In this document: piece after piece, positions 1 through 5,327 of the stretch
Layout: the number at the start of each line of letters is the position of its first letter
Position numbering within the stretch: the stretch's first letter is position 1
Origin: Chloroflexota bacterium
GTDB lineage: Bacteria; Chloroflexota; Dehalococcoidia; SZUA-161; SpSt-899
NCBI GenBank assembly: GCA_018725425.1
Contig: QLUL01000072.1
Location: forward strand, 1-6,015
Length of the DNA: 6,015 bases
Reading direction: 5' to 3'
Translations under genes and position numbers: made by a program
Notes under the pieces: generated by a model
The model's input: the letters and a program-made list of their open reading frames with translations, nothing else
Told to the model about the DNA's origin: nothing
Database searches by the model: none

Positions 1-1
1 G

Positions 2-91
2 ACGGTAAAATCTCATATTAAGGGCATCTTTCGTAAACTCGGCATTAAGTCACGGGCAGAGGCTGCCAGTTATCTCCGGCAGCGCGATTAG
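2..91 (+). CDS. LuxR-family response regulator, C-terminal HTH fragment (partial)
   Basis: The reading frame opens at base 2 and ends at TAG 89-91, giving 29 residues that begin TVKSHIKGIFRKLGIKSRAE. This is the second half of a LuxR/GerE-type helix-turn-helix: the recognition helix (TVKSHIKGIFRKLG) followed by the usual K-S-R-A-E-A turn into the last helix. Such domains usually sit at the C-terminus of NarL/FixJ-type two-component response regulators and bind promoter DNA. The receiver half lies outside the window, so whether it is a response regulator or a stand-alone LuxR protein cannot be seen. It runs toward the peptide gene cluster, but a leader of about 310 bases with several hairpins separates them. 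Co-regulation is possible but not shown. Confidence 0.85.
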   Translation, partial: TVKSHIKGIFRKLGIKSRAEAASYLRQRD

Positions 92-120
92 CCCACTAGC
101 TCTCCTCGAACCACATAACA

Positions 121-204
121 CTCCCCTCAAAGATAAGGGGGAGAAACAATCACCCTTAAAATAACCCTCCCCTCAAAGCTAAGGGTGAGAAAAAATCACC
201 CTTG
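121..204. repeat. Two direct copies of a 38-bp hairpin repeat
   Basis: The units lie at 121-158 and 167-204, offset by 46 bases. They match at all but about four positions and are separated by 8 bases. Both begin CTCCCCTCAAAG and end with TCACCCTT plus one base. Inside the second unit AAGGGTGA (181-188) pairs perfectly with TCACCCTT (196-203) across a 7-nt A-rich loop; the first unit can form the same hairpin with one mismatch (135-142 with 150-157). The first unit can alternatively fold CTCCCC (121-126) onto GGGGAG (138-143). They resemble REP-type intergenic palindromes. They could act as transcript 3'-end stabilisers or weak terminators for the upstream gene; no T-tract follows on the + strand. 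Confidence 0.75.
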
Positions 205-216
205 AATTTCTCTAAA

Positions 217-235
217 AATCCCCCATTGGGGGATT
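217..235. terminator. Perfect short palindrome, terminator-like when read leftward
   Basis: AATCCCCC (217-224) and GGGGGATT (228-235) form an 8-bp G/C-rich stem with a 3-nt loop. On the - strand the stem runs straight into TTTTTAGAG, the layout of an intrinsic terminator; on the + strand no T-run follows. It may stop leftward (antisense) transcription coming from the peptide cluster, or act as a third hairpin of the upstream repeat group. Its right arm touches the TTGACT of the promoter candidate. Confidence 0.5.
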
Positions 236-262
236 GACTCAGTACCAGAATTAAACGAAAAT
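234..262 (+). promoter_or_regulatory. Weak sigma70-type promoter candidate for the peptide gene
   Basis: TTGACT (234-239) is a good -35 match. At 17-bp spacing it is followed by GAAAAT (257-262), a poor -10 that keeps the important A at position 2 and T at position 6. Transcription would start near base 269 and give an untranslated leader of about 130 nt, which would include the stem-loop at 333-372. Another possible -10 (TAATAC, 271-276) lacks a good -35. The call rests on motif matching by eye only. Confidence 0.25.
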
Positions 263-332
263 CGATAGTGTAATACCCGGTTGATATTTCTCCAGGGCAT
301 GGTGGTTAGCAGAGTGTTTAATAAAAAGAGGC

Positions 333-372
333 TGAAAAGGCCGGAAACTCAAGCCGAAATTCTGGCTTTTCA
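333..372 (+). promoter_or_regulatory. Leader stem-loop just upstream of the peptide gene
   Basis: TGAAAAGGCC (333-342) can pair with GGCTTTTCA (364-372) with one bulged G, enclosing a 21-nt loop. The loop contains GCC (353-355), which could pair instead with GGC (364-366), so two mutually exclusive folds exist. The structure ends 14 nt before the ribosome binding site of the peptide gene. It could affect translation or mRNA stability. I compared it by eye with known riboswitch classes and recognised none. Confidence 0.3.
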
Positions 373-386
373 AGACTAAACCGAGG

Positions 387-395
387 GGAGGTGAT
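387..395 (+). promoter_or_regulatory. Very strong ribosome binding site of the peptide gene
   Basis: GGAGGTGAT matches the complement of the 16S rRNA 3' end at nine consecutive positions, and its GGAGG core is 9 nt from ATG 401. It is the best Shine-Dalgarno sequence in the window. It fixes the peptide start at 401 rather than at the internal ATG 455, and suggests that the peptide is made in larger amounts than the enzymes downstream. Confidence 0.85.
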
Positions 396-400
396 CGGAA

Positions 401-529
401 ATGGTGGAAGCCTTAGTAACCGTGAGCGGCCTAATCGGTGAAGCAGGAGTCGTCATGGGCTTTGTCGGACCGGCTGGTTTCTGGGCCGCGGCAGGTGCTG
501 TGGTGGTGATAGTTGTAGTTCCCATATAG
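401..529 (+). CDS. Putative RiPP precursor: 42-residue hydrophobic peptide
   Basis: The peptide begins MVEALVTVSGLIGEAGVV and ends GAVVVIVVVPI. It has 12 Val, 7 Gly and 7 Ala, with Phe21, Phe27, Trp28, Pro24 and Pro41. The only charged residues are Glu3 and Glu14; it has no Lys, Arg, Asp, His, Cys, Asn, Gln or Tyr. The start is set by a near-perfect ribosome binding site, which argues strongly that it is translated. Its place ahead of a PqqD-like protein, radical SAM genes and an ABC exporter makes it the natural substrate. The N-terminal half with the two Glu would be the leader and the Gly/Ala/Val tail (about 23-42) the core. Without Cys, thioether products (sactipeptide, ranthipeptide, lanthipeptide) are ruled out. 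Val C-methylation, epimerisation or an aromatic crosslink remain possible. Alternatives are an unmodified membrane-inserting bacteriocin or a small membrane protein. No classical Gly-Gly export leader is clear. Confidence 0.75.
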   Translation: MVEALVTVSGLIGEAGVVMGFVGPAGFWAAAGAVVVIVVVPI

Positions 530-885
530 CTAGTGTTCAATTGGAACGGACTATCCAACTATAGCAGCCCGACCCCAGGATAAGGCAAGAAGGCCGCGGG
601 TGGCCCCCGGGCGTTCGATTGGTAAAGAGTGCCTTACGAGGTTATGCTTGTGAACGCCCGGGGCGCAGAATAAAACATGGAGTAGCAGGTCCGCTCAGAG
701 GAGTAGAGAGAAGTGGGCTGTCCTTTGGAATAACGAAAGGAAAAGGGTTGCCAACGGAGAGCCATCGTTTTTGAGAGATCTGTCAGTCGGCGCCAGGTCG
801 AGGGGTCGGCGGAAAGCGGGGGGGCGCAGGAGAGAGGCCACCGGGATCGGTTGTTTTCTGGCATTCGGATGCTATTCAAGAACCA
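530..885. other. Non-coding, structured, purine-rich gap between peptide and enzyme genes
   Basis: About 355 bases in which I find no convincing gene. It looks more G-rich than the operon after it and has a marked G/A bias on the + strand from roughly 660 to 850. It contains a strong inverted repeat (605-663). The + strand frames hold only very short ORFs without ribosome binding sites, such as nine codons from 643. The 81-codon - strand frame (634-879) starts at TTG without a Shine-Dalgarno sequence and resembles no family I know. The gap may be a long untranslated leader or processing region that sets different levels of peptide and enzymes, or hold an unrecognised small RNA. Confidence 0.5.
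605..663 (+). promoter_or_regulatory. Large stem-loop with a perfect 12-bp stem
   Basis: CCCCGGGCGTTC (605-616) is exactly complementary to GAACGCCCGGGG (652-663), with a 35-nt loop; G617-U651 could add a wobble pair. Nine of the twelve pairs are G-C. Inside the loop GTAA and TTAC can form a small second hairpin. No T-run follows, so it is not a classical intrinsic terminator. Its place between a probably highly expressed precursor gene and its biosynthetic genes suits partial attenuation or protection of the short upstream mRNA from exonucleases. Confidence 0.6.
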
Positions 886-887
886 AT

Positions 888-892
888 GAGGA
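888..892 (+). promoter_or_regulatory. Ribosome binding site that decides the radical SAM start
   Basis: Three in-frame ATGs lie at 886, 892 and 898. GAGGA (888-892) is 5 nt from ATG 898 and overlaps the other two. No Shine-Dalgarno sequence precedes ATG 886. The protein then begins MKDIALIQP, a usual opening for the B12-domain beta strand of this family, so 898 is preferred. Confidence 0.6.
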
Positions 893-897
893 TGGAC

Positions 898-2217
898 ATG
901 AAGGATATAGCATTAATACAGCCGCGTGACCCTATGCTGGACACCCAAATGTACGATACTCTCGTAATGGCTTCGCTTGAAATGCCGCCAATAGGGTTGT
1001 GTTATCTTGCTACGGTGTTAAGAGACTTGGGCTATAGTGTTGAACTGATTGACTTCAATATTGTTCCGGATGTTGCGGAGAGGGAAAGAACCATCGAGCA
1101 AGTAATTAGTTGGGGACCGAGGATTGTGGGTATTTCAACAATGACTCCTACATACCCGGGTGCCGTAGAGATCTCCAAACAAGTAAGGAAGTCCCTGGGT
1201 AACAGGACCAAAATATTGATGGGAGGGTATCATGCAACTGCTCTTCCAGAAGAATGTTTAAGAACATTTGCCGCTGATATTGTTGTTAAAGGCGAAGGAG
1301 AGGAAGTTATGCCCAAATTAGCTGAATTGCTTCTAAACGGCGGAAAAGACTCGTGTCTCACCGCCGTTGATGGGATATCTTATAGGGATAAGGACGGAAA
1401 TATAATCCACAACCCACCCAAGATTGTTAGGTTATTCGATCTCGATAGATTACCATTTCCCGACAGGGATCTCGTCAATCACATAGAAAAGTACAGAAGT
1501 CCCGCCTCTATTACTTCGACTAGAGGCTGTCCAGCCAGATGCATATTTTGTGCCGCAGGTGGATGGGGTTGTGTGGCTTCAAGAAGCCCTGAGAATGTAG
1601 TTGACGAAGTAGAATTCGTGATCAACAAGTATGGTTTCAGAAATCTGTATTTTGTGGACAATGTATTTACAGTTGATAAGGATAGAACAATGAGAATACT
1701 TACGTTAATGAGACAACGCAATCTCAAAATAGGTTTTGCCCTCGAAGCAAGGGCTCCAACCGTCGATAAAGACTTGATTAGAGCAATGGCCGACGCAGGA
1801 TGCATAGGGATTCAGTTCGGAGTGGAGAGTGGCAATCCAGAGGTACTTACAAAAATAAAGAAAGGTATTACGTTGCAACAGGTAGATAACGCTGTACAGT
1901 TATGCTTGCAATATGGAATCCGACCTTTGTGTAGTTTCATAATAGGGCATCCTTTCGACGACAGGGAAACGGTTCGTGACACAATAAATTACGCGAAAAA
2001 GCTAAAGAGGCAGGGTGCACTGGTGGTATTTGCGGTTCTAGACGTTTATCCGGGCACAGAGATTTTTGATAGGCGCGATGAACTTGGTGTTTCAATAATC
2101 GATCCGGATTTCTCAAGATGGACTGGAGGGCAGCGTGTACTGCGGACAAAACATCTGTCTTCCGAAGAACTGCGCCGTCTTCATCGGGAAGCGCTTTGCG
2201 AGGTGGCCGCAATATGA
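898..2217 (+). CDS. B12-binding-domain radical SAM enzyme (class B methyltransferase-like)
   Basis: 439 residues, with the usual two-domain layout and about the usual length for the BchE-like group. Residues 1-130 form a cobalamin-binding Rossmann domain (MKDIALIQP strand, PPIGLCYLATVLR, GISTMTPTYPG, LMGGYHATALPEE); such domains bind B12 without the DxHxxG histidine. Residues 200-400 form the radical SAM barrel with C211-PAR-C215-IF-C218 for the 4Fe-4S cluster, YFVDNVFTVD (251-260) and FGVESGNPEVL (307-317). Members use SAM plus methylcobalamin for methylation of unactivated carbons, or for other radical steps. Next to a Val-rich peptide and a PqqD-like protein, peptide C-methylation is the favoured role by inference, with the precursor at 401-529 as substrate. 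The start is taken at 898; 886 would add four residues. The protein ends abruptly at EALCEVAAI, without the FYxRP-type tail helix many relatives carry. Its stop overlaps the next start (ATGA). Confidence 0.9.
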   Translation: MKDIALIQPRDPMLDTQMYDTLVMASLEMPPIGLCYLATVLRDLGYSVELIDFNIVPDVAERERTIEQVISWGPRIVGISTMTPTYPGAVEISKQVRKSLGNRTKILMGGYHATALPEECLRTFAADIVVKGEGEEVMPKLAELLLNGGKDSCLTAVDGISYRDKDGNIIHNPPKIVRLFDLDRLPFPDRDLVNHIEKYRSPASITSTRGCPARCIFCAAGGWGCVASRSPENVVDEVEFVINKYGFRNLYFVDNVFTVDKDRTMRILTLMRQRNLKIGFALEARAPTVDKDLIRAMADAGCIGIQFGVESGNPEVLTKIKKGITLQQVDNAVQLCLQYGIRPLCSFIIGHPFDDRETVRDTINYAKKLKRQGALVVFAVLDVYPGTEIFDRRDELGVSIIDPDFSRWTGGQRVLRTKHLSSEELRRLHREALCEVAAI

Positions 2218-2666
2218 TGATAGGTTTCAAACAGGAGTTTGTCACAACCTTGAAACTCCTGAAGAAGAGTAAGGTCACGGGCAAAGTTAGCTACCTTGCT
2301 CATGCGGAGATGGTGGAGGAATTTCAGCCGTGGCCGGCAAGTACCGAACAGCTACTTAGCCCACTTGCTGGGCGTTGTGCGGCTCGCGATGAAAGTTTTG
2401 GGTATATTCTTGTTGTGTACGACATGGTTTTTATCGTCGACAAGCTTGCGATATTAGTGCTTAAGATGTGTAATGGTTTCAATTCTGTGGGGGAAATAAA
2501 GCGAGGCGTAAGGGAAGAGGTGGAGTGCGCTGAAGATTATTGTGGCGATGACCTTGAGACCGCCATTGAGCAAGCAATCAGCAACCTGACTAAAACTGGA
2601 ATAGCGATATTGATGCCCAAAGCGCAATTGCATCTGGAAAGACGCAGGGAAAGACGGAATGGGTGA
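2214..2666 (+). CDS. PqqD-like RiPP recognition element protein
   Basis: 150 residues from ATG 2214, which overlaps the preceding stop; GAGGTGG (2200-2206) lies 7 nt upstream. The frame is open as far back as 2118, but that part lies inside the upstream gene. Residues 62-136 read as a PqqD-type winged helix: strands YILVVYD and MVFIVD, a helix LAILVLKMCNG, then SVGEIKRGVREE and a final helix IEQAISNLTKTGIAIL. In RiPP systems this fold clamps the precursor leader and delivers it to the radical SAM enzyme, so the hydrophobic peptide is the expected ligand. Residues 1-60 are extra compared with stand-alone PqqD (about 90 residues) and begin with a basic helix (FKQEFVTTLKLLKKSK). That part resembles the missing tail of the upstream enzyme. 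The C-terminus is very basic (LERRRERRNG). The domain call is fairly sure; ligand identity is inferred. Confidence 0.75.
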   Translation: MMIGFKQEFVTTLKLLKKSKVTGKVSYLAHAEMVEEFQPWPASTEQLLSPLAGRCAARDESFGYILVVYDMVFIVDKLAILVLKMCNGFNSVGEIKRGVREEVECAEDYCGDDLETAIEQAISNLTKTGIAILMPKAQLHLERRRERRNG

Positions 2667-3666
2667 TAACGTGTCTACAGAGCATGGTGGCAAATATGTT
2701 AAACAGATCAGCCACCTAGCTAAGCTTAAAGGGCCCATCAGGCTTAACCTTGAACTGGCTCCGAGTATAGGTATCTGTGATGTTCCACTGAGATCAGGAG
2801 GCAGAAAGCCCGAGTTTGCATGCCCTAAACATTTCGTCGAGATAATTGAGAGGTTCTCTCGTCGCGAGATATTAACGTTCGCGCTAATAATGCCTGATAT
2901 CCTTTTGATACTAAAGGACAATAGTGATAGTATCGGGGCCATAAGTGGAAAAATCAATGAGACAGAAGCTCTCCTCTCAATTAATAGTGCTGTATCTTCA
3001 AGACAAAGTGTGTTAATGTTGAAGGAAGGCGTTGTTGAGTTCAGTTCAAAACTGCTGGATCTGAATATAGACTACGTCGTGCTATATGTTGACTTGGAGT
3101 TATTGCCGATTGTCTCTGAGGGCATAGGTAGACTGGCAAAGAGCTTAATGGGAGAACTTTCGTACTTGCAGTTATGTTCTGACTTGCCTCGCACAGCCAG
3201 CCAGACGGAGAAGTTAGTCACATGTACAAGAGAAATTGTGCGGATATCAGAGTTATTCCCGATAAATCTAGCTTTAGTGAATCGCGGTGAGGGTTCTATC
3301 GAGGATTTTGCGGAGCTTCTGTTAGCTTTAGAAAGCTTAGGCTTTCCCGGGACTCCTCTTGTTAAGCCGCCCTTGCCTTTTTGCTTGAGTTCGCTACTGA
3401 AGAGCAGTTATTCTGCAAGCAATCCAGGTATCTGTCCGGCCCGGGATATCTGCCTCACTATTGATTCGTCCGGGAATGGTGTACCCTGTTTGCACAACAG
3501 ACAACCCTCGTTGTCAAACTGGGATATTTCTACGGATTCATGGAAGAGGTATAAGGACGATTTTATAAGAACAGCAAATTTTCGTATGCTCGACGGTTGC
3601 AATGCTTGTGAAATCCAAAGGTACTGTATGGGACTGTGCGACATATGGCAGGCGAGCAAGAGGTAA
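2659..3666 (+). CDS. Radical-SAM-like protein with SPASM domain but no CxxxCxxC motif
   Basis: 335 residues; ATG 2659 overlaps the previous gene by 8 bases, with AGGGAAAG just upstream. The C-terminus is a SPASM domain: C259-X12-G272-X4-C277, then C314-X2-C317-X5-C323-X3-C327, fitting the consensus for binding auxiliary 4Fe-4S clusters except that the usual last Cys is absent. The N-terminal part starts like a radical SAM barrel (IRLNLELAPSIG, residues 27-38), but where CNLxCxxC is expected it reads GICDVPLRSGG. Only isolated Cys40 and Cys55 occur there, so the SAM-cleaving cluster cannot form in the usual way. Segments such as NIDYVVLYVDLELLP (136-150) and INLALVNRGEGSIEDFAELL (202-221) keep barrel character. 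It is probably a non-radical partner, scaffold or electron relay for the B12 radical SAM enzyme. A peptide-binding paralogue is an alternative. Confidence 0.75.
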   Translation: MGDNVSTEHGGKYVKQISHLAKLKGPIRLNLELAPSIGICDVPLRSGGRKPEFACPKHFVEIIERFSRREILTFALIMPDILLILKDNSDSIGAISGKINETEALLSINSAVSSRQSVLMLKEGVVEFSSKLLDLNIDYVVLYVDLELLPIVSEGIGRLAKSLMGELSYLQLCSDLPRTASQTEKLVTCTREIVRISELFPINLALVNRGEGSIEDFAELLLALESLGFPGTPLVKPPLPFCLSSLLKSSYSASNPGICPARDICLTIDSSGNGVPCLHNRQPSLSNWDISTDSWKRYKDDFIRTANFRMLDGCNACEIQRYCMGLCDIWQASKR

Positions 3667-3671
3667 GGAGG
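3665..3671 (+). promoter_or_regulatory. Ribosome binding site setting a TTG start for the ABC ATPase
   Basis: AAGGAGG lies 4 nt before TTG 3676, but 16 nt before the first in-frame ATG (3688). The spacing to TTG is short but workable, while that to ATG is too long, so the TTG start is preferred. A rare start codon behind a strong Shine-Dalgarno sequence may moderate transporter levels. Confidence 0.65.
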
Positions 3672-3675
3672 CAAT

Positions 3676-4590
3676 TTGAGCAACGACATGCTTATTCTGG
3701 AGAGAGTGTTCAAGAATTATGGCAAAGTTACGGCTCTTTCGGGTTTAAACCTCCGGGTTAAAGAAGGGGAAATTTTAGGCCTTGTTGGGCCTAACGGCGC
3801 GGGAAAGACTACGACTCTTAAAATATTGTCGGCTTTGCTCAAGCCGGATTCTGGAATTGTAATTGTGGATGACATCGACGTTCAAACTGACCCTTTCAAC
3901 GCTAAGAAGCTATTAGGTTATCTCCCGGACATACCCTTACTCTACGAAAGCTTCACCCTCTTTGACACGTTGAAAATGTATGCCAGGGTTTGGTCTCTTC
4001 AATTCGACAAGATGACAGCTTTAAGGGCTCTCGACGAGTATGGACTGGAGCCTCTCTGGAACCGCCAAGTCAGGACGTTGTCTAAGGGTCAGAAGCAGAG
4101 GCTAAGTTTGATATGTGCGCTTCTGCACAAGCCGCGGATACTTCTTCTTGATGAACCGTTTGCCGGGCTTGATATCGAGTCGAGACAGTTTATTCGCAAC
4201 AAGATTGAGCAGTTGGCTAATGACGCGGGCAAGACGATTGTGGTGAGTTCGCACGATCTGGCCGACGTGGAGAAGCTTTGCACCCGGATAGCTCTAATTG
4301 TAAAAGGCAGAGTCGCTTACTACGGCACCGAGGATGAAATAAGAACCAAAGTCCTTGGCAAGGTTTTCAAAATAGTCCTCGCGAAAATACCATCCAACCT
4401 GGAAGGTCTAACCAATTGCACGAAGGAGTACTCTGTTGCTGCAGACACCGTGACGTTTACCTTAGGCGAGGGGCAAAGCCCAAATCAGGTGTTAAAATAC
4501 TTCATCGCAAGGGATTGCCCCATTCGGGCATTTGAACCTCTGGGATTGGAGGAAATGCTTCTGGAGATTATAAAAAGGGAGGAATCCTGA
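3676..4590 (+). CDS. ABC transporter ATP-binding protein (ABC-2 exporter type)
   Basis: 304 residues. Walker A is GPNGAGKTT (38-46), the signature is LSKGQ (135-139), Walker B RILLLDEP (154-161), D-loop GLD (164-166) and H-loop His193, so it should be a competent ATPase. Residues 1-215 are the nucleotide-binding domain; the remaining 90 residues are an accessory tail typical of CcmA/NatA-like ATPases paired with ABC-2 permeases. There is no peptidase (C39) domain, so leader cleavage is not built into the transporter. It lies 9 bases after the SPASM gene and 2 bases before the permease gene, so these genes should be co-transcribed and translationally coupled. It powers export of the modified peptide or removes it from the membrane as self-protection. 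The family and motifs are clear; the substrate is inferred from context. Confidence 0.93.
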   Translation: MSNDMLILERVFKNYGKVTALSGLNLRVKEGEILGLVGPNGAGKTTTLKILSALLKPDSGIVIVDDIDVQTDPFNAKKLLGYLPDIPLLYESFTLFDTLKMYARVWSLQFDKMTALRALDEYGLEPLWNRQVRTLSKGQKQRLSLICALLHKPRILLLDEPFAGLDIESRQFIRNKIEQLANDAGKTIVVSSHDLADVEKLCTRIALIVKGRVAYYGTEDEIRTKVLGKVFKIVLAKIPSNLEGLTNCTKEYSVAADTVTFTLGEGQSPNQVLKYFIARDCPIRAFEPLGLEEMLLEIIKREES

Positions 4591-4592
4591 AA

Positions 4593-5327
4593 ATGTTGTG
4601 GTCTGTCTTATATAAGGAATTCCTGGAGCTGAAAAGCGATAAAGGGGCAATAGCGCGACTGGCCCTTCAAAGCATAGTATATGGGCTATTCTTCCCAACA
4701 GTGATGTATCTGCAGCTCGTTGGTGTATTGCCAATGGAAATTGGAGACGTTGTCCTGACTGAGGCAGAAAAGGTAACGATAGTAAAGCATTCCCTGGAGA
4801 CTTTCGGCCCGTTGCTCTTGCCATTCTTCGTCTCTGTAATGGCTTCACTGCTGGTTATACCTTCTATTGTTCAGGAGACTGAGAGTCGCACCCTGGAACG
4901 CCTCCTTTCGCTTCCACTCTCATGGAGGAACATCCTCTTCGGCAAGTTTCTTTTCTATTTCGCCATTTCCCTGGCATGTGCCTATATCATCGTTTCCATC
5001 TACTTTTTGCTGAGCAGTGCTATTGTGGAAGCGTTTCAACCTCCGGATTTGGGCACTTACCTGCTTGTACTTGTGCCCGCAGTAAGTTTTTACACGGTAT
5101 CAGCAGGACTGTTTGTTTCTGCGCGAGCCCGCAGTGTAAGATCGGCAAATGTACTCGGTGGATTCTTAACAGTGGGCCTATTCTTATTAGTGTTCTTCTT
5201 GTCATGGTTTGCAGGAGTAGAACCGGGAAGGGATATTATTGTAACCTTTAGTCTTGTACTATTTGTCGTAGGTGCAAAGCTGATATATCTTACTGCTAAG
5301 GTAAATCCGGAGAAATTGCTAACATAA
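4593..5327 (+). CDS. ABC-2 type transporter permease
   Basis: 244 residues with six predicted membrane segments by eye (about 22-41, 72-93, 116-140, 155-176, 187-207 and 213-234). Between segments 2 and 3 it carries ETESRTLERLLSLPLSWRNI (95-114) followed by GK, the conserved cytoplasmic coupling stretch of ABC-2 permeases. ATG 4593 follows GGGAGGA (4577-4583) at 9 nt. It is the membrane partner of the ATPase just upstream; one ATPase plus one six-segment permease would act as a homodimer of each. A large loop between segments 1 and 2 (about 45-70) is acidic and probably external. Expected role: exporting the hydrophobic peptide product or clearing it from the membrane for immunity. This is the last gene of the operon; a hairpin follows 19 bases after the stop. 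Confidence 0.88.
   Translation: MLWSVLYKEFLELKSDKGAIARLALQSIVYGLFFPTVMYLQLVGVLPMEIGDVVLTEAEKVTIVKHSLETFGPLLLPFFVSVMASLLVIPSIVQETESRTLERLLSLPLSWRNILFGKFLFYFAISLACAYIIVSIYFLLSSAIVEAFQPPDLGTYLLVLVPAVSFYTVSAGLFVSARARSVRSANVLGGFLTVGLFLLVFFLSWFAGVEPGRDIIVTFSLVLFVVGAKLIYLTAKVNPEKLLT

Follow-up and report, generated by a model that had tools for sequence, protein, structure and literature searches.

Contig QLUL01000072.1, 6,015 bases long, carries on its plus strand a set of six genes that, judged from their content and motifs, would on balance make and export a ribosomally synthesised and post-translationally modified peptide (RiPP), which we predict to be C-methylated. The set comprises an open reading frame (ORF) for a hydrophobic peptide, a cobalamin-binding radical S-adenosylmethionine (SAM) enzyme, a PqqD-like protein, a SPASM protein without CxxxCxxC, and the ATPase and permease of an ABC-2 type ATP-binding cassette (ABC) transporter. 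The window analysed here is this contig in its entirety (C313 of G000, a genome of 1.52 Mb in 342 contigs, 81% complete), and we take its host to be an uncultured Chloroflexota bacterium, a relative of Dehalococcoidia. The sequence-only reading from which this work started had proposed these genes as an unrecognised RiPP system. The positions it gave for the six ORFs are confirmed, as is its description of the five enzyme and transporter genes as overlapping or 2–9 bases apart: the cobalamin enzyme and PqqD-like genes overlap by 4 bases (2214–2217), the PqqD-like and SPASM genes by 8 (2659–2666), and gaps of 9 and 2 bases precede the ATPase and permease genes, respectively. The features of the window are:

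1–90, plus strand: 3' end of an upstream gene, the C-terminal part of a LuxR/GerE helix-turn-helix (HTH) domain (PF00196, 26.5 bits, cut-off 23.5)

165–305, plus strand: conserved intergenic element (7 matches on 6 contigs)

387–396, plus strand: Shine-Dalgarno sequence GGAGGTGATC of the 42-residue ORF (−22.0 kcal/mol)

401–529, plus strand: hydrophobic Val/Gly/Ala-rich peptide of 42 residues, candidate RiPP precursor

603–664, plus strand: intergenic RNA hairpin between the peptide ORF and the enzyme genes

898–2217, plus strand: cobalamin-binding radical SAM enzyme, 439 residues (frame open from 886; PF02310, PF04055)

2214–2666, plus strand: PqqD-like protein of the RiPP recognition element (RRE) type, 150 residues (PqqD-like region about residues 72–137; PF05402 below cut-off)

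2659–3666, plus strand: radical-SAM-derived SPASM protein, 335 residues (by cysteine spacing; TIGR04085 below cut-off)

3676–4590, plus strand: ABC transporter ATPase, DrrA-like, TTG start (PF00005, 105.8 bits)

4593–5327, plus strand: ABC-2 type permease, likely the exporter partner (PF01061, 59 bits, over cut-off)

The cobalamin enzyme contains a B12-binding domain (PF02310, 94.5 bits) and a Radical_SAM domain (PF04055, 106.2 bits), both over cut-off, together with a CxxxCxxC motif, CPARCIFC at 1528–1551, and so has the domains and motif that define cobalamin-dependent radical SAM proteins, with no SPASM hit. The cobalamin motif DxHxxG, which is absent from many members of this group, has no match in its N-terminal 200 residues. 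The start at 898 is better than that at 886, since it has the stronger ribosome pairing (−8.5 vs −3.3 kcal/mol) and the homologue in the related locus L003 starts there. At least 243 relatives were found at E ≤ 1e-60 after scoring the 7,996 candidates that shared most words with it, and 120 of these are listed. In a midpoint-rooted tree of 164 sequences, built without P0022 and P0063 (≤380 residues; P0022 was also left out of the enzyme profile), the window enzyme falls into a 25-member group (local support 1.0) with P0012–P0021 and P0023–P0036, whose sources include one Lachnospiraceae (P0024) and one archaeon (P0017). Two members of the group, P0021 and P0030, come from the same sources on contigs that are both 15,072 bases long, suggesting that they are neighbours, possibly paired in one cluster. 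A fused PqqD domain (precomputed PF05402) is carried by 10 of the 120 relatives listed, all outside the window's tree group, and the association of this enzyme type with PqqD therefore recurs. These ten proteins (P0046, P0048, P0052, P0055, P0069, P0071, P0079, P0089, P0090 and P0099), in which the domain is N-terminal wherever the sequence was printed, are possibly RiPP enzymes. No relatives were found in four scans of viral contigs, in phages with P0024 or in plasmids with P0033, and PADLOC gave one candidate-system match, at 60.2 bits. A match on S. clavuligerus pSCL4 (31% identity), considered as a possible clavusporin locus, was set aside as uninformative, the record having no annotated features there; judged by eye, the neighbouring ORFs are carbamoyltransferase- and glycosyltransferase-like.

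The SPASM protein had been described from the sequence as radical-SAM-like, lacking the SAM cluster but keeping SPASM, and this description is supported by both a decayed motif and the spacing of six cysteines. A motif search found no CxxxCxxC in the protein; the decayed SAM motif reads S36-x3-C40-x2-P43 (2764–2787), and among the aligned relatives this place is CxxxCxxP in P0002 and P0003 and SxxxCxxP in the window and P0001, with P0004 and P0005 stopping short of it. Residues C259, C277, C314, C317, C323 and C327 (3433–3639) form Cx12Gx4C and Cx2Cx5Cx3C, spaced exactly as the first six cysteines of the SPASM motif Cx9-15Gx4C...Cx2Cx5Cx3C...C (PMC12093266), the seventh being absent. In the ligand assignment of that article, the counterparts of C259, C277 and C327 bind Aux I, and those of C314, C317 and C323 provide three of the four ligands of Aux II. 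Such exact spacing supports the SPASM identity despite the below-cut-off score. An hhalign comparison aligns this region weakly (P 0.0027, 11%) to the SPASM of the radical SAM protein of locus L098, described below, the cysteines being in register; the radical SAM protein of L071 gave nothing (P 0.58). A Pfam search of 2659–3663, read down to E 1, returned no family, so neither PF04055 nor DUF5825 was detected; the pseudo-SAM/SPASM models of NCBIfam did not match, and a PDB sequence search with the SPASM profile returned only fusion-protein chance matches. Relatives are few, with 5 at E ≤ 0.001 (3,703 candidates were scored out of some 5.8 billion database proteins) in a search that needs shared five-residue words and may thus miss remoter ones. 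The protein occurs in 2 of 197 related genomes, its own and G002, and a genome-contig scan gave two loci (L003 and L004) from 38 pattern matches.

For the PqqD-like protein, profile–profile comparison supports the assignment despite below-cut-off scores. When hhalign compares it with the PqqD domains at the N-termini of ten relatives of the cobalamin enzyme, it reaches 92% probability (P 5e-7) over 65 columns; alignments to the single sequences pq71, rre98 and r98n are not significant (P 0.053, 0.48 and 0.4, respectively). Six relatives were found at E ≤ 0.001 (594 candidates scored), and among the 197 related genomes it occurs in its own only.

The 42-residue peptide, MVEALVTVSGLIGEAGVVMGFVGPAGFWAAAGAVVVIVVVPI, has a grand average of hydropathy of 1.86, the highest of 45 ORFs of 30–70 residues in six frames, and its Shine-Dalgarno sequence pairs more strongly than, or in one case as strongly as, that of any other of 324 candidate plus-strand starts. 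Among the small-ORF starts selected for scoring between 90 and 900, those at 281, 299, 619 and 771 were rejected as alternative precursors, pairing at only −1.9 to −7.9 kcal/mol. The peptide has a counterpart in L003, where a 37-residue ORF, MVEPVMMLGGAVASAGCGIGILKCGKWTIVLVGVLLA, lies at the equivalent place behind a ribosome site that pairs at −12.5 kcal/mol. Both peptides begin MVE and have a similar hydrophobic make-up, and M1, V2, E3, G10, A15, G16, G20, G26, W28 and V35 are conserved between them; from the spacing of these residues our guess is that the leader ends after A15–G16. The initial description of the peptide as Cys-free holds for the window and is not a conserved property, since the L003 peptide has two cysteines. 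PHROGs gave no match for the peptides. No homologous cluster lacking a short hydrophobic ORF was encountered, though on little data, the one locus that reaches upstream (L003) having the ORF. The RiPP logic first proposed for these genes thus gains from the PqqD profile match and from the hydrophobic ORF with its ribosome site in one of one other locus, short of proof.

L003 has the same gene order as the window, with a LuxR-fused ABC gene followed by the hydrophobic ORF, the cobalamin enzyme, the PqqD-like gene and the SPASM gene, and shares the intergenic element and the hairpin. Its contig ends inside the SPASM gene, placing any transporter beyond its reach, and it is with the window one of only two loci that show the upstream half. 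Between the two, nonsynonymous over synonymous divergence (dN/dS) is 0.167/0.640 for the cobalamin enzyme, 0.214/0.689 for the PqqD-like gene and 0.228/0.527 for the SPASM gene. L003 is labelled Bacillota; its protein P0007 is elsewhere named Dehalococcoidia, and it shares the element with Chloroflexota genomes, a possible case of misbinning. Because of these conflicting labels L003 is no evidence for transfer between phyla. The downstream half is seen in G002, of the same genus, where a 28,127-base contig matching JALPXQ010000006.1 keeps the SPASM gene, the ABC gene and the permease gene in this order.

A number of observations weigh against a RiPP pathway and bear on the alternatives considered below. 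The key family scores are under their cut-offs: TIGR04085 gives 23.5 bits (E 5.8e-5, cut-off 27) for the SPASM protein, and PF05402 gives 16.3 bits (gathering score 23.4; 17.5 bits in the genome search) for the PqqD-like protein, for which, in NCBIfam, HslJ (17.1 bits, E 0.0034) outranks PqqD (13.1 bits, E 0.064), although neither comes near its cut-off. The structure model of the PqqD-like protein, with a mean predicted local distance difference test score (pLDDT) of 46.0, is too poor for its fold to be judged and had no fold match at E 0.001; a PDB sequence search with its profile returned viral fusion-protein chance matches, PqqC/D (E 0.22 and 2.1) and THR2 (E 6.7). The SPASM protein is modelled, also poorly, as a beta/alpha barrel (mean pLDDT 49.0, about 70–85 only in the middle), and the folds closest to it, none of which reaches E 0.001, belong to ordinary TIM barrels, for instance xylose isomerase; a radical SAM enzyme, NifB, is among these weak matches (E 0.008–0.019), a small point in favour of a radical SAM origin. 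The cobalamin enzyme has HpnJ as its best NCBIfam match (166.4 bits, with ApyD second at 160.7) and AprD4 as its best solved-structure match, with an unnamed radical SAM protein, OxsB, CysS and a Trp C2-methyltransferase also among the best; to our knowledge neither HpnJ nor AprD4 is a peptide methylase. The window contains no peptidase, and its SPASM gene diverges fast from that of G002 (dN/dS 0.124/0.175 over 167 codons).

This last ratio, 0.71, together with the absent seventh cysteine and a SAM motif found in two stages of degeneration (CxxxCxxP and SxxxCxxP), would fit a SPASM protein that is the decaying remnant of a former radical SAM/SPASM enzyme in a degrading cluster rather than a partner. 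We consider this improbable, as the six SPASM cysteines and C242 are invariant in all six aligned rows (two of them partial proteins), dN/dS falls to 0.43 in the comparison with L003, and the gene is uninterrupted and overlaps the PqqD-like gene.

Greater weight attaches to the idea, still unlikely in our judgement, that the 42-residue ORF has nothing to do with the enzymes, either encoding a small membrane peptide or being open by chance, and that the enzymes act on another peptide, a small molecule or a lipid. The ORF is set apart from the enzyme genes by 356 bases, counted to the 886 start of the cobalamin enzyme frame, and it is poorly conserved. Identity between the two peptides is 27%, and composition shuffles (n=5000) reach the global score in 0.72% and the local score in 3.4% of cases, the real similarity thus exceeding them modestly. 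Comparison of 27 window ORFs with 35 L003 ORFs of at least 15 residues shows the antisense frame of the same DNA to align better than the peptide (44 vs 39), a 17-residue ORF at 600 also scoring high (36). The dN/dS of the peptide is near 1 (0.79/0.88, both near saturation), and a candidate precursor is seen in a single other locus. The case for the peptide consequently rests on position, ribosome site and composition and not on sequence conservation. Of 400 Chloroflexota genomes, 45 (its own included) have a match to the cobalamin enzyme at 1e-70, and the 20 stretches taken from 17 of the 44 others contained no ORF, among those of at least 50 residues called by a simple longest-ORF rule, matching the PqqD, SPASM or fused-PqqD profiles at E 0.001, for which reason the close Chloroflexota relatives look unlike RiPP enzymes; HpnJ as best NCBIfam match points the same way. 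Ordinary radical SAM motif genes lie near some of the cobalamin enzymes in L048, L049, L053, L054 and L055. Against an unrelated ORF stand the strength of the ribosome site, the L003 ORF at the same position with its MVE start, similar hydrophobicity, and shared element and hairpin, and the binding of leader peptides by PqqD-type domains (PMC8326336).

For the RiPP pathway, which we prefer, we infer the following route from the gene content, motifs, conservation and ribosome-site strength observed. A LuxR-type activator would drive the palindrome promoter, the strong ribosome site would yield much peptide, and the hairpin at 603–664 would separate expression of the peptide from that of the enzymes. 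The PqqD-like protein and the SAM-cluster-less SPASM protein would position the peptide, the latter, a radical SAM descendant that has apparently lost its SAM cluster, pairing with the cobalamin enzyme and supplying an auxiliary Fe–S cluster as well as substrate positioning. The cobalamin enzyme would methylate unactivated carbons, most likely the β-carbons of Val and Ile, or around the conserved Trp28, and the ABC pair would export the product. C-methylation is our choice because the RiPP enzyme ApyD methylates the C-β of Tyr (PMC11117315), PoyC methylates Val in a polytheonamide-derived peptide (PMC5682303), and the side chains of the peptide are mainly aliphatic.

A different chemistry in the same setting, in which the cobalamin enzyme would perform a cross-linking, an oxidation, a ring closure or an epimerisation and would need the SPASM protein for electron transfer, is a minority possibility that we take seriously. 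Non-methylating cobalamin radical SAM enzymes do exist, PbsB cross-linking ortho-tyrosines (PMC12257519), and the SPASM cysteines are kept, a redox role having been proposed for such clusters, whose function is controversial (PMC8326336). The rank of AprD4 among solved structures also agrees with it. ApyD, however, the highest-scoring characterised RiPP model in NCBIfam, is a C-methyltransferase, and no Cys, Tyr or Asp is conserved between the window and L003 peptides.

The intergenic element upstream of the peptide ORF consists of a terminator-like hairpin (180–204), a palindrome, CCCCCATTGGGGG (220–232), and a promoter-like pair, a −35 TTGACT (234–239) and a −10 GAAAAT (257–262) with a 17-base spacer. 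It has seven matches on six contigs of four genomes, the window included (G000:C313, G000:C297, G002:C142, G004:C13, G197:C23 and, twice, G197:C116, which is L003), the copies on C297 and C142 being partial. ATCCCCCnnTGGGGGATT is kept in all seven copies, followed by a TTGAC −35 in five, TTAAC in one and TTGAT in one. A promoter scan found one site (234–262), no excess over the 0.6 expected from shuffles, and terminator-like sites occur on both strands, as the plus-strand hairpin at 180–204 and, on the minus strand, as the palindrome itself; the element may terminate transcription of the upstream gene, either in addition to acting as a promoter with an operator or in place of that role. We favour an operator role for the palindrome since its centre lies about 43 bases before the expected transcription start, where LuxR-type activators often bind. 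The candidate regulator is the LuxR-fused ABC ATPase, a similar tail of which lies at 1–90 of the window. An ABC ATPase with a C-terminal LuxR/GerE HTH fusion is found upstream of the element in L003 (3–464) and L072 (6452–7084), and the element recurs beside ABC transporter or radical SAM gene sets (L003 680–880, L065, L066, L067 and L069), suggesting a shared regulon or a terminator or repeat. In the hairpin at 603–664, all 14 pairs are kept in L003, two being changed on both sides, two on one side and none broken (in two sequences only), and folding energies are moderately unusual (z −1.15 and −2.54). Rfam gave no match at gathering score in the window, L003 or L004, and one sub-threshold match to a plant miRNA (E 0.14, window 90–900).

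The cobalamin enzyme has matches at 1e-85 in 12 of 398 genomes from G197's phylum, G197 being one of them; of the 11 others one, L098 (G653:C17), has in our reading a RiPP-like setting. Its minus-strand genes (4050–10623), called by the same longest-ORF rule, encode a precursor-like ORF, a radical SAM/SPASM protein, a 123-residue protein of no family, a cobalamin radical SAM enzyme, a C39 peptidase (43.9 bits against a cut-off of 22), an ABC ATPase and a large membrane protein. The precursor-like ORF has 80 residues from a GTG at 10623, an ATG three codons further in having the better ribosome site (−16.1 kcal/mol); it contains QVGG followed by a Val/Ile/Thr/Gly-rich stretch, and its sole NCBIfam match is MamC, sub-threshold at 15.9 of 100 bits. 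The radical SAM/SPASM protein matches PqqD weakly near its N-terminus (18.5 bits, cut-off 23.4), which our own PqqD profiles missed. L098 is apparently a peptide system with two radical enzymes, and suggests that a cobalamin radical SAM enzyme of this broad family can share a peptide cluster with a radical SAM/SPASM protein, both SAM motifs being present. In L071 (315–6017, minus strand; G197:C23), the same element has downstream of it genes for an ABC protein, an ABC-2-like permease, a radical SAM/SPASM protein and a PqqD-like protein; a gene that by eye resembles a transposase separates this operon from the element.

Of the remaining genes in the window, the ABC ATPase scores 203.9 bits with TIGR01188, below the cut-off of 312, and is over cut-off for PF00005. 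We take the partial frame at the right end to be folK-like, from its sequence. Another contig of the same genome (L073, 1–3984) has a truncated radical SAM gene together with ABC genes and a permease that shares 55% identity with the window's.

More speculatively, and with more doubt than confidence, the window may represent a new class of RiPPs whose modifying enzyme is split, a SPASM-less cobalamin catalyst working with a separate dead radical SAM protein that contributes only its SPASM module to give a polytheonamide-like, membrane-active, C-methylated, Val/Gly/Ala-rich product. In the enzymes discussed in PMC8326336 the SPASM domain and the SAM cluster share a chain and are hard to separate; the window has the SPASM module on a separate protein without a SAM motif. 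If the pair works as a unit, omission or mutation of one of the two proteins would allow the role of SPASM to be examined, and the system, if real, would contribute a hydrophobic RiPP of a rarely sampled kind, possibly C-methylated, from Chloroflexota that have not been cultured.

As for known systems, the combination had been called an unrecognised class. The exact pair of a cobalamin radical SAM enzyme and a SAM-cluster-less SPASM partner was not recognised, as a named RiPP class or otherwise, in the open-licence literature, within the search terms used and with most subscription papers outside its scope, and to that extent the claim stands; its elements nevertheless have precedents in ApyD, the DUF5825 pair, TrnC/TrnD and the pseudo-radical SAM proteins. 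A separate SPASM protein together with a PqqD is reportedly found in Haft's GeoRSP system. Sactipeptides and ranthipeptides were rejected, the window peptide having no Cys (two in L003) and the SPASM partner no CxxxCxxC, as was the RiPP C-methyltransferase family TIGR03975 (122.1 bits vs cut-off 281.85). Proteusins have a nitrile-hydratase-type leader, which the window lacks, a difference from PoyB and PoyC. Like the window enzyme in its predicted role, PoyB and PoyC are cobalamin radical SAM enzymes acting on a peptide, but with Cx7Cx2C (PMC5682303) in place of CxxxCxxC. ApyD of the aminopyruvatide cluster (NF050148) is an RRE-containing cobalamin radical SAM enzyme acting on a ribosomal peptide; the score of the window enzyme is far below the ApyD cut-off of 750, and ApyD carries the RRE on its own chain and acts together with a P450, a multinuclear non-haem iron-dependent oxidative enzyme (MNIO) and a methyltransferase, no SPASM protein being mentioned in the available text of PMC11117315.

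L098 resembles the window in its cobalamin radical SAM enzyme, radical SAM/SPASM protein with a weak PqqD match, ABC genes and precursor-like ORF; it differs in that its SPASM protein keeps CxxxCxxC, in its C39 peptidase and double-glycine leader, and in the distance of its cobalamin enzyme (tree distance 3.04). The pseudo-radical SAM proteins of Bacteroidales (IPR026418; TIGR04347 pseudo-SAM/SPASM) lie beside a radical SAM enzyme and a precursor and are hypothesised to be partners (PMC10352776), but they accompany radical SAM enzymes, and the text of that article contains no occurrence of B12. The cobalamin radical SAM and DUF5825 proteins that C-methylate clavusporins form a two-protein unit in RiPP clusters (PMC12257519), showing that such enzymes can use helpers, whereas the helper in the window is a SPASM protein with no DUF5825 detected. 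In thuricin CD, TrnC and TrnD are two radical SAM-type proteins in one complex, of which only TrnC strictly needs its SAM cluster (PMC12093266). TrnD still serves as a partner once its SAM cluster is disrupted, a working precedent for a protein of this type that does not cleave SAM; TrnD, however, naturally keeps its cluster and both proteins are SPASM/twitch enzymes, whereas the predicted catalyst of the window is cobalamin-dependent and its putative partner has no SAM motif.

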